Of a stretch of DNA of 64,000 bases, positions 12,326 through 64,000 are shown one piece after another (position 1 is the stretch's first letter; the number at the start of each line of letters is the position of its first letter). Source of the DNA: an uncultured Anaerolineae bacterium (GTDB lineage Bacteria > Chloroflexota > Anaerolineae > Anaerolineales > Villigracilaceae); assembly GCA_903875215.1 (NCBI GenBank), contig CAIQVH010000032.1:1-64000 (forward strand), written 5' to 3'. The notes beneath the pieces are model-generated. The model had not been told where the DNA came from. It saw only the letters and a list, made by a program, of their open reading frames with translations, and searched no databases. Position numbers and translations under genes: made by a program.

Positions 12326-15300
12326 TTATTGGGAGCTGGTGGCGAGGCTGGTTTTGTTGCGGCCGGTCTGTTTGGCTTCGTACAATGCGCGGTCGGCCGA
12401 GTGCAGGACTTCCTGGCCAGAGAAGCCATGATCGGGGAAAACTGCCACCCCGATGGAGACTGTGGCGCGCATTGTGTGGTTTTTGTAGGTGAAGCTGTGA
12501 TTTTCAAACGCTTTGCGCCAGTCTTCGGCGCGCTGGCTGGCGATGGAACTGGGGGCGCCGGGCAGGATCATGCAAAACTCTTCGCCTCCATAGCGGCAGG
12601 CAATATCTGAGCGGCGGCTTTCTTTGAGCAGGATATGGGCCAGACCGCGCAGGACGACATCTCCGCCGTCGTGGCTGTAAGAGTCGTTGATATTCTTGAA
12701 ATAGTCAATGTCAAACATCAAGATTGAGATGGGCATACCGTCGCGTTCGGCGCGGGCCACTTCGCGGCCCAGGGTTTCTTCCAGGAAGCGGCGGTTGTAC
12801 AGGCCGGTCAACGGGTCGCGGATGGCTTGCTCGCGTAGTTCATCCTGAAGTTGGGCGATCTCTTCCAGCTGGGTTTGCAGGCGTTTGTTGGCGCGCCGCA
12901 GGCTGGCCTGCGCCTGGCGGCGTTCCTCCAGTTCGTGGCGGGCGCTTTCGAACAGGCGGGCATTTTCGATGGCCACGGCGGCCTGGACACTGAAGGTTTG
13001 CAGCCGTTCGGCATGGGCCTGGGTGTAATAATTGACCTGTTCGCTGCCGATGCTGATGAAGCCGACGACCTTGTTTTTTACCAGGATGGGTGCCCCAAGA
13101 TACGATTTGACCCTGGCGGTTTCTGGTGTGACGATCCATTTTGGTTCGTTGTGGGTATCGGGGATGATCACGGTTTTCTTGGTTTCAAACAGCTGGCGCA
13201 ACGCGTAAAAACGCTTGAAATTGACGTAGTGAACTTTCAGGGTTTCCCGGTCTGAGACGTCTTGTGAATATTCATGACTATGGAAAAAACTTACATCTTG
13301 GCCTTTGAGCAGACCGATGTCGACCCGGTCGTGCGGAACCACCTTGCCGACGTTTTCGATGATGTGGTGCAGAATCTCATCAAGGTTCAGGGTTGAGGCC
13401 AGTGCGCTGGATGCGTCGGTGAGTGATTCGGCCAACAGGCGCTGAAGCAGTTCGCTTTCGTAGGCGCGGCGGAGCTGGGTGATGTCTTCGCCCAGGCTGG
13501 CCATGCCGATGCTGATTCCGTTTTCGTCGCGCAGCGGGATATTGCTCCACGAGATGAGCAATTGGTTGCCGCTGCGAGTCTGGATGGTGCTTTCATAGCG
13601 TGAAACGACGGTGCCGTGACGGATGGCGCGCAGAAAATCCTGCCTGTCTTTTTCATCCTGGTCAAGGGTCCAATTGAACCAGTTTTGGCCGAGAACTTCA
13701 GCGCGCCGCCAGCCGGTGACGGTCTGGATGTGGTTGTTGAAAAAGGTGATATTGCCGTCCATGTCGAGCATGACAGCCAGCATCTGGATGTTTTCCAGGA
13801 TGTCGCGCAGTTGGCGCTCTTTTTCGAGCAGCGCCTGTTCGGCCTGTTTGCGGCGGCTGATGTCGATTACGAAGCCGATGATGGAATCCACCTCGCCGGT
13901 GTCTTTTCGGGTGGCTGAGACGTTTAATTCACCCCAAAAGGTGGAACCATTGGCGCTGAAATAACGATTTTCGATGTGGTAGTTGGAAATTTCCCCGGCG
14001 ATCAGCGCGCGTTGTTGTGAGCGGTTGAGGTAGATATCGTTGGGATGCAGGTAGGAGGCTTCTTCTGCGCCGATCAATTCTTCGGGAGTTTGGCCCAGCA
14101 TTGCGGCCCAATACTCGTTTACCATCTGGTAGCGTCCCTGCGAGTCCGAAACCCAGATGCCCAGCCCGGCATAATCAAAGACCAATTTGAGCTGGGCGCG
14201 GCCCTGGCGAATCTCTTCTTCCATTTTTTTGCGTTCGTTGATATCAACGTGAGCACTTAAAATGGCGGGTTTGCCGTAATACTTGAGCTTGCGGAAGGAG
14301 GCCATGATCCAGCGGCTGTTGCCCCGGGCAGTTTGCATGTGTAATTCCTGGTTGGTGACTGCCGTGTTGTTCATCAGTTTTTCCAGCAGCGCTGCCCGGG
14401 CCTGCGGGTCTTTGTAAAATGAACTGGTTCGGAGAGTGCCGAGGGTGGCTTCTTCAACTTCGTAGGATTCCCGGGCCACCGGGTTGGTGTAGATGATGCG
14501 GCCTTCCGGCAGGGTGGAGATGACCAGGGAGAAGGGCAGCGTCTCGAGCACGTTCTGGAGGGTGGACTGGCTCTCGAACAAATCGTCGGCGATGCGCTGT
14601 TGGGCGGTGATGTCATTCAATACGATCATGCGCCCGCGCTGCACGCCCTGCCTATCCAGAATTGGGGTGATCTCAGCGCTGTAGCTGGTTTCCTCGTCGC
14701 TGGCAATGTGGATGGAGTGGGGTGTACCGGTTGTCAGTAAATCGAGCAGGGCTGGATAATTCGCCAGAACATTCGTGGCAGGCTGCCCGAAGGCATTGCT
14801 GGGCTGGATCTCCAGCAGAGATTGGGCGGTGCGATTTATATCGAGGATCTGGTCATGCATATCCAGGGTGAGGATACCCTGGCGTAAATTCTCAAAGGCC
14901 AGTTCGCGGGCGAGTGGCACGATTTCCAGCAGGCGATAGCGGAGAATGCCCCAGCCCAGGGCCAGCCCGCTGAGAGAATAAGCCAGCGGCTGCAGGTCTA
15001 AATAATTATACTGGTGCCCAAACGGTCTGGAAGCGGTCAGGCTCATGATCAGGATGCCCAGCCAGGGGGCGACCATCCCGTAGATCAGGGGCAAGATTTG
15101 CGCGTTGGAAACCTTATATCTCAGCGTGTGACGCGCCAGGATAAATGTGGCCAGGGTCTGGGCCAGGTAATAGTAAACCTGCAGCCCGAGTAAGACTTTG
15201 GGGTCTTCGAAAAACAGATCGAGTATATGTGGCGGCACCTGGCCGGAAGGGGAGATGTGATGTGCCTGGCTGATGAATGCGGTCAGCACCAGCCCGCTCA

Positions 15301-58331: not shown

Positions 58332-58360
58332 TTGTAATCCATCCCGGTCTGTGTGAGAAT
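58332..58360 (+). promoter_or_regulatory. Promoter of the tandem GEMM RNA
   Basis: TTGTAA (58332-58337), 17 bases, TG-t-GAGAAT (58352-58360, extended -10). Predicted start near 58367, just before the first aptamer. Confidence 0.6.
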
Positions 58361-58377
58361 GAAATTGCACACGAGAA

Positions 58378-58457
58378 GAGGCAAAACCAGAGTAATCTGG
58401 CGACGCAAAGTCATAGGGTCAGACGAGAGTACGATTTCGCTGACAGCCTGACTGCCG
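58378..58457 (+). ncRNA. Cyclic-di-GMP-I (GEMM) aptamer, copy 1 of 3
   Basis: Elements in GEMM order: GGCAAAACC, hairpin CCAGA-GTAA-TCTGG (58387-58400, GNRA loop), GACGCAAAG (58402-58410), a P3 arm from AGGGTCAG to CTGACAGCCTGAC, and closing TGCC which pairs with GGCA. The tetraloop receptor of the P3 arm is less typical than in copies 2 and 3. Confidence 0.75.
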
Positions 58458-58459
58458 AA

Positions 58460-58539
58460 AAAAGCAAAACCGGGGAAACCCGGCGGCACAAAGCCAGAGG
58501 GTCTAAAGTCCGACTGTGACCAGGATCGCCCGGCTGCCG
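58460..58539 (+). ncRNA. Cyclic-di-GMP-I (GEMM) aptamer, copy 2 of 3
   Basis: AGCAAAACC, hairpin CCGGG-GAAA-CCCGG (58470-58483), GGCACAAAG (58485-58493; consensus GACGCAAAG differs at two places), GGGTCTAAAG receptor arm, closing CCCGGCTGCC. Copy 1 ends only two bases upstream and copy 3 begins directly behind it. Confidence 0.78.
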
Positions 58540-58632
58540 AAAAGCAAACCCGGTGAAAACCGGCGACGCAAAGCTATGGGTCTAAAATCAGTGAACCTTT
58601 AACTAGAACCTGATCAGATTGCCAGGCTGCCG
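58540..58632 (+). ncRNA. Cyclic-di-GMP-I (GEMM) aptamer, copy 3 of 3
   Basis: AAGCAAACC, hairpin CCGGT-GAAA-ACCGG (58550-58563), perfect GACGCAAAG (58565-58573), arm GGGTCTAAAATCAG with CTGATCAGATTGCC around a longer loop, closing AGGCTGCC. This is the closest copy to the consensus. The terminator lies 15 bases downstream. Confidence 0.82.
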
Positions 58633-58647
58633 AACGTGCAAAGTATC

Positions 58648-58695
58648 CCTGCCGATGGACCGTTATCGCCCAGTCCATCGGCAGGTCTTTTATTT
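58648..58695 (+). terminator. Strong terminator of the GEMM RNA
   Basis: CCTGCCGATGGAC (58648-58660) pairs with GTCCATCGGCAGG (58673-58685), followed by TCTTTTATTT. No plus-strand gene follows within several kilobases. Confidence 0.88.
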
Positions 58696-58712: not shown

Positions 58713-58753
58713 AAAAAAACGTGGGCTGGCCTGTTTTGAGCAGGGCAGCCCAC
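58713..58753 (-). terminator. Terminator of the molybdenum hydroxylase operon
   Basis: GTGGGCTG (58721-58728) pairs with CAGCCCAC (58746-58753) with an inner CTG/CAG stem; seven T on the minus strand (58719-58713). It lies behind the large subunit gene. Confidence 0.82.
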
Positions 58754-58781
58754 ATTTGTGGTTAACTGGTCAGCGCTAGGG

Positions 58782-63747: not shown

Positions 63748-64000
63748 ATGATCGTTACCACCAAAAAGCTTTTTGAAGCCGCTTATGGCAAGTATGCCGT
63801 TGGCGCGTACAACATTAATAACCTCGAGCAAACCATGGGGTTGTTCCGCGGGAATGTTGAGAGCCAGGCGCCGTTTATCATCCAGATCAGCAAGGGCGCG
63901 CGCTCTTACACCCACAAGAAGATGCTGGAAGGTCTGATTCGCGCTGCAGATGAGGTTTTCCCTGAGGCAATTTTTGCCGTCCATCTTGATCACGGCGACG
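63748..64000 (+). CDS. fba: Class II fructose-bisphosphate aldolase, 3' end outside window
   Basis: 84 codons visible before the right edge. The translation reads MIVTTKKLFEAAYGKYAVGA, then YNINNLEQTMGLFRG, PFIIQISKGAR and HLDHGD, the start of the zinc site of class II aldolases. The enzyme cleaves fructose 1,6-bisphosphate in glycolysis and works backwards in gluconeogenesis. ATG 63748 has AGAGG seven bases upstream. No further genes can be seen. Confidence 0.93.
   Translation, partial: MIVTTKKLFEAAYGKYAVGAYNINNLEQTMGLFRGNVESQAPFIIQISKGARSYTHKKMLEGLIRAADEVFPEAIFAVHLDHGD

Follow-up and report, generated by a model that had tools for sequence, protein, structure and literature searches.

Riboswitch aptamers are almost always interpreted as switches that act in cis, and the idea of a free-standing c-di-GMP aptamer appears once in the literature that we found, as a proposal in Bdellovibrio. 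According to passages of that report, merRNA of Bdellovibrio bacteriovorus is a gene-less, massively expressed RNA of 445 nt with one c-di-GMP riboswitch, which was proposed to act as an intracellular c-di-GMP reservoir; these passages state that it has no conserved downstream ORF and that no conservation was found outside the Bdellovibrio lineage (PMC3627812). Three c-di-GMP-I aptamers in a row are known from Bc3-5, a set that regulates cspABCDE and in which every aptamer is served by an expression platform of its own (PMC4759541). Contiguous aptamers are also found in surveyed tandem c-di-GMP-I riboswitches, for which main-text passages give 347 doublets and 12 triplets (PMC9481103); in these passages and in those of PMC12452182, the tandems are cis regulators with several expression platforms, and adjacent aptamers served by one platform are mainly glycine aptamers (PMC12452182). 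Finally, excerpts on the GEMM-Ib (c-AMP-GMP) riboswitches of Geobacter describe cis gene regulation in hosts that contain a Hypr GGDEF enzyme (PMC6456294).

The window analyzed here, a stretch of 64,000 nucleotides from an uncultured Anaerolineae bacterium, contains an array that is built from RF01051 aptamers but appears to lack the coupled expression platform that defines a cis riboswitch. In comparison with Bc3-5, the array has no terminator between its aptamers, a single uncoupled terminator at its end, and no evident target gene. It likewise differs from the surveyed tandems described in the above passages, as it has neither internal terminators nor a coupled platform. The closest precedent is merRNA, as described in the passages of PMC3627812, since the array, too, is probably a stand-alone RNA with c-di-GMP-I aptamers, and it may work like merRNA and be a further example of its type. 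However, the array fuses three aptamers, adds a closing helix, has mixed specificity bases, and occurs in another phylum; furthermore, merRNA comes with expression data, whereas the array is known from sequence alone. The preliminary description of this locus held that the GEMM switches known so far act in cis on a gene, which overlooks this precedent. We saw no description of a triple-aptamer array of this kind in the main-text passages of PMC9481103 and PMC12452182, and the accessible parts of the literature on GEMM-I in Chloroflexi and Anaerolineae yielded no description of this RNA. If our reading is true, bacteria also use aptamers as free-standing binders of second messengers.

A cmscan search over the whole window returned exactly three RF01051 matches, all on the plus strand between 58370 and 58634 and each exceeding the gathering score of 35. 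This is the number that the preliminary description had expected from the Rfam model, and it confirms the three c-di-GMP-I aptamers. Aptamer 1 spans 58370 to 58459 (59.5 bits), aptamer 2 spans 58460 to 58541 (47.7 bits), and aptamer 3 spans 58544 to 58634 (53.5 bits); when the search was run on the window's own genome, aptamers 2 and 3 began a few bases earlier and scored 59.5 and 62.2. A linker (58537 to 58543, plus strand) that consists of CCGAAA and position 20 (A58543) connects aptamers 2 and 3. The form CCGAAA-N20-G was present in 15/15 arrays of our first set, with exceptions in the larger set of arrays, for example, L164. All three cores belong to RF01051 as described earlier, but they are not uniform: aptamer 2 reads GGCACAAAG and not GACGCAAAG, and aptamer 1 is devoid of the usual CUAA after GGGUC.

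In the window's genome and 60 relatives, an RF01051 match was found in 37 of the 61 genomes, several of which carry three matches in a row with almost no spacing. Arrays were gathered from RF01051 matches and with a covariance model of the junction, and were read with their flanks. We thus read the array in 48 genomes from 12 genera, all in the GTDB family of the window and with one array per genome; as these 48 were picked as array matches and 26 of them come from one genus, they are no random sample and the counts are not independent. A strict pattern of the junction between aptamers 2 and 3 matched once in the window and never in 100 shuffles. This pattern was present in 49/152 genomes of the family, always once per genome, and 49 is a lower bound since the pattern misses arrays that we read (e.g., those of G003, G005, G007, G010, G097, and G099). 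A 400-genome sample of the phylum contained the strict pattern in eight genomes, all in the window's family, and none of the 375 genomes outside the family in the phylum sample had a match. Consistently, when the junction model was run at an E value of 1e-7 or better on 396 genomes of the class, adjacent match pairs occurred only in the window's family. The viral contigs searched with the junction pattern gave 0 matches. The unit is not universal, as RF01051 gave no match in genome G006, a member of the window's genus with a listed completeness of 100%. The array is also present in the metagenome-assembled genome Chloroflexi bacterium isolate NC_groundwater_774, of which the fetched stretch covers the last part of aptamer 1 and the whole of the other two aptamers.

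The array is preceded by a putative promoter with a -35 element, TTGTAA (58332 to 58337, plus strand), and a -10 element, GAGAAT (58355 to 58360, plus strand), separated by 17 bp and identified by comparison of the conserved promoters; these positions, as well as those of the terminator, are the ones given in the preliminary description. From the position of the -10 element, we infer a transcription start near G58367. In all 45 uncut arrays, a TTGAAA-like -35 element was followed by a 16- to 17-bp spacer and a -10 element ending 10 to 12 nt before the CGA of aptamer 1, with at least 8 of the 12 consensus bases. This set of 45 omits L069, L134, and L149, which are cut by contig ends; of the duplicates L130 and L166, only L166 was kept. 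With 8/12 bases, the window's promoter is among the three lowest of the 45 (two others share its score), shuffled upstream sequence reaches this score in 11% of cases, and a generic scan with a limit of 9 missed it. Just upstream of the -35 element, 54 to 56 nt before the CGA of aptamer 1, 34/45 arrays have a conserved box, TAGAACAnnTG, that is perhaps an activator site. The box is absent from the eight arrays of the window's genus and from L060, L067, and L158.

The 5' end of the RNA is predicted to pair with the bases that follow aptamer 3. In the window, UUGCAC (58365 to 58370) pairs with GUGCAA (58636 to 58641, directly after the CCGAA of aptamer 3), both on the plus strand, and we call this closing helix P0. 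A P0 of at least 4 bp was found in 44 of the 45 uncut arrays, whereas shuffled tails gave 2.5 out of 45 on average and never more than 8. The helix covaries: among the 42 arrays that share the commonest register, 35 have C-G as the innermost pair, 5 have U-A, and 2 have A-U, and the fourth pair is G-C in 33, A-U in 7, C-G in 1, and G-U in 1.

The preliminary description had made conservation of the core in relatives a test of its reading, and the core is indeed kept in our first 16 arrays, with C44 present in 45/47 aptamers and A47 in 47/47. These counts, together with the linker (15/15) and P0 (44/45), argue against a degenerating remnant of an earlier tandem riboswitch, which we regard as very improbable even though the core of the middle aptamer is lost in G003 and G005 and the window's aptamer 1 has no CUAA. 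The middle aptamers of G003 (L071) and G005 (L072) look like ghosts, with the hairpin and spacing kept and the core lost. As the search gave no match to them, their bounds were set by hand, and the bounds of the middle aptamer of G001 were lengthened.

Downstream of aptamer 3, an intrinsic terminator (58648 to 58694, plus strand) is formed by a 13-bp stem with a 12-nt loop and a U tract (-26.1 kcal/mol). Its fold has a z score of -5.7, none of 200 shuffles was as good, and the generic scan missed it because the loop exceeds the limit of 8. In 42 of the 45 arrays with a terminator found, the terminator starts 8 to 17 nt past aptamer 3. Since a cis riboswitch is defined by an expression platform coupled to its aptamer, we compared the 5' arm of the terminator with the 3' segment of the aptamer in arrays and in controls. 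The controls were 84 of the 102 non-array RF01051 matches in the relatives searched (the other 18 were not fetched), reduced to 63 by the 21 for which no terminator was found; they come from these relatives rather than from the whole set of array genomes, and tandem copies as well as an adjacent pair (G056) are among them. At least six contiguous Watson-Crick pairs between the two segments occurred in 0/45 arrays against 25/63 control aptamers, and the mean duplex energy was -5.5 kcal/mol in arrays versus -11.4 kcal/mol in controls. The scanner found no terminator in L069, which lies at a contig end, or in L071 and L072, which have visible hairpins with loops beyond its limit, and in L062, L158, and L160, it passed over the nearest hairpin and chose one 57 to 144 nt away. 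In the window, the 5' arm forms four contiguous pairs with the 3' segment of aptamer 3 and the 3' arm forms six; the 3' arm matches aptamer 3 over 6 to 7 bases in the window, L057, and L059 and over at most 5 in the other 42 arrays. The suggestion that the terminator reports the ligand thus finds no support in the arrays, none of which showed coupling, and cis attenuation was rejected by this comparison.

Cis attenuation could nevertheless be envisaged from the genes around the arrays: the array would attenuate the gene that follows it, which in much of the family is ruvB, and would have been orphaned by rearrangement in the window's genus. Indeed, ruvB is the commonest next gene (directly next in about 26 of the 48 arrays, from six genera), and a same-strand ORF begins within 600 nt downstream in 37/47 arrays, compared to 63 of the 76 control aptamers with enough flank (11 of the 76 have a convergent next gene and 2 have no ORF). 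However, all 25 of the downstream ruvB genes examined have their own TATAAT -10 box 6 to 7 nt before the ATG, which points to a separate and nearly leaderless ruvB transcript. In the window's genome, ruvB sits elsewhere, on contig C3, with the same TATAAT box and without an aptamer match on that contig, and the array is retained in the 10/47 cases in which the next gene is convergent. With the lack of coupling, these observations make an attenuator quite unlikely.

In the window, the gene next to the array is convergent rather than a same-strand gene that could be regulated, and the next plus-strand candidate in the list of ORFs, taken for fba in the preliminary description, starts at 63748. 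The earlier statement that no gene lies downstream is therefore right for the window, but not for the family, given the same-strand ORFs near most arrays; similarly, the array that was to be looked for in related genomes was read in 48 genomes, but its gene-less setting is confined to the genus of the window and a small number of other genera. What the family has in common appears to be the independence of the unit and not the absence of a downstream gene. Read-through into the antisense of the molybdenum hydroxylase gene, another earlier suggestion, is not supported, as an opposed terminator-like hairpin of that convergent gene (58717 to 58757, minus strand, -25.3 kcal/mol, followed by T7), outside the RNA gene, intervenes and most relatives have another gene at this place.

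Six of the eight arrays of the window's genus lie between an upstream two-component pair and a downstream convergent molybdenum hydroxylase gene; of the exceptions, L061 is without the two-component pair and L057 has the pair downstream. In other genera, the upstream neighbors include HlyD, MacB/FtsX, or IMPDH genes and the downstream neighbors include ruvB, adenylosuccinate synthetase, GH25 lysozyme, MBOAT, and response-regulator-like genes. The downstream ORF differs between genera, but ruvB recurs. Because the array starts only 81 nt past the end of the window's histidine kinase gene, which has the same orientation, it might be taken for a 3' untranslated region (3' UTR) element of the upstream gene. 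We consider this extremely improbable, since a promoter is found just upstream of the array in 45/45 cases and the upstream gene varies by genus. Moreover, it is on the opposite strand in L061, where it has homologs; L057 and L069 show the same arrangement, although there the gene is no more than a called ORF. The unit is therefore more than a 3' UTR.

Across the arrays compared, the promoter, closing helix, aptamer cores, and terminator are conserved while the neighbors change. The conserved promoter, P0, uncoupled terminator, single copy, and changing neighbors support the view, put forward in the preliminary description, of a stand-alone RNA with three sites, and we consider it highly likely that the locus is an autonomous RNA gene. 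With a promoter and a terminator of its own, the RNA probably binds cyclic dinucleotide signals in its own right instead of switching a neighboring gene.

Which signals the three sites would bind depends on their pockets. The ligand contacts are positions 20, 47, and 92 in Vc2 numbering. The spacings that we used agree with those of PMC4744006. In the window, site 1 reads G20/A47/C92, a c-di-GMP-type pocket, and sites 2 and 3 read A20/A47/C92; the earlier assignment of all three to c-di-GMP therefore fits site 1 and is put in question for the other two. G20 was present in 19/45 scorable aptamers of the first 16 arrays, a count that excludes the degenerate middle aptamers of G003 and G005, versus 74/84 control aptamers. 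Of the 40 arrays parsed in full, 27 have A20/C92 in site 1, 8 have G20/C92, and 5 have A20/U92, which amounts to A20 in 32; site 2 is A20/C92 in 35, with A20 overall in 36, and site 3 is G20/C92 in 25. Parsing yielded one or more G20/C92 sites in 37 of the 48 arrays. A change of G20 lowers c-di-GMP binding by Vc2 about 30,000-fold but does not abolish binding in Vc1 (PMC4744006). This loss in Vc2 and the low share of G20 make a pure c-di-GMP sponge doubtful. In passages on Geobacter, A20, the base found at sites 2 and 3, marks c-AMP-GMP binding and an A20G change converts the aptamer to c-di-GMP (PMC6456294), while an engineered G20A/C92U pocket binds c-di-AMP (PMC7288161). In aptamer 1 of G001, G004, G005, G010, G020, and G033, all six U92 copies also have A20, a pair that resembles this engineered pocket, and U92 is absent from all six G20 copies.

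We then considered the enzymes that could supply these ligands. The window's genome contains nine GGDEF matches and one DAC-domain c-di-AMP synthase, and a search of it for SMODS nucleotidyltransferases gave 0 matches. From four relatives, 30 of 91 GGDEF matches were fetched, and 35 of the 39 loci, covering five genomes, could be parsed by alignment: none of the 35 domains has the Ser or Thr of Hypr enzymes, 34 having Asp and 1 having Asn, in contrast to the Geobacter hosts of GEMM-Ib, whose Hypr GGDEF is described in the passages cited above. The GGDEF domain of a multisensor protein encoded in the window itself (12353 to 12826, minus strand) reads GGEEF and has Asp at the base-specificity position. 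The synthase search, with no Hypr GGDEF parsed and no SMODS match, did not support c-AMP-GMP as the obvious ligand. A20 pockets without a recognized c-AMP-GMP synthase leave several candidates for the A20 sites, which may bind c-AMP-GMP made by an unrecognized enzyme, bind c-di-GMP with low affinity, or have no ligand. The mixed bases at position 20 thus pose a direct and testable question about the ligands of the sites.

The transcription, fold, and cyclic dinucleotide binding of the RNA are predictions, from which we propose the following model. The single-copy gene would yield a noncoding RNA of about 325 nt (approximately 58367 to 58692), in which P0 would shut three back-to-back GEMM-I aptamers into one unit, followed by a terminator without ligand control. 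With its 5' end paired and its 3' end in a hairpin, the RNA could build up and take up to three cyclic dinucleotide molecules, and the mixed position 20 bases might give the three sites different specificities or affinities. It would thus act as a sink or a releasable store that shifts the free level available to the ordinary, gene-linked riboswitches and to the receptor proteins of its cell. A sponge role is possible and has a published precedent in merRNA, as proposed in passages of PMC3627812; a sink requires the RNA to be abundant. We favor a sink or store as the main role only tentatively, and the explanation as a whole, a stand-alone triple-aptamer RNA with this mechanism, is in our view about as apt to be right as wrong.

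Riboswitch-derived trans-acting small RNAs are known in principle in Firmicutes. By analogy, ligand binding could alter a loop, a linker, or P0 of the array RNA, which would then pair with mRNAs or hold a protein. Such a ligand-gated RNA, the main rival to the sink or store, would fit the autonomy of the unit, the constant length of the linker between aptamers 2 and 3 (15/15 arrays of the first set), the sites of differing signature, which suggest integration, and a hexaloop, GAACUG, in P3 of aptamer 1. This loop recurs in 26 of the 48 arrays, which belong to only four genera, and is absent from the window's genus. Nevertheless, almost the whole RNA is aptamer, helix, or terminator; conservation in a 15-array alignment lies mainly within the known aptamer core, and the loop of P3 differs between genera in aptamers 1 and 3. 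As this alignment and the nonsystematic comparison of P3 loops revealed no free segment conserved across genera, a sink or store is the simplest role, and we view the trans-acting RNA as possible but less probable. A broader version, in which three rigidly joined pockets of different specificity, conserved across much of the family, make the RNA a trans integrator or buffer of several second messengers, is rather unlikely in our estimation; its pockets would be for c-di-GMP, c-AMP-GMP, and, in some genomes, the A20/U92 type that resembles the engineered c-di-AMP binder.

Besides the stand-alone array, the window's genome contains other c-di-GMP-I aptamers, as its seven RF01051 matches are made up of the triple, a spaced pair on contig C7, and two singles on contig C33. 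The pair on C7 and those of G023, G017, and G016 (L073 to L076) are tandem c-di-GMP-I switches of the ordinary kind, in which a terminator separates the aptamers, and such switches coexist with the fused triple array in G023, in G017, and in the window's genome.
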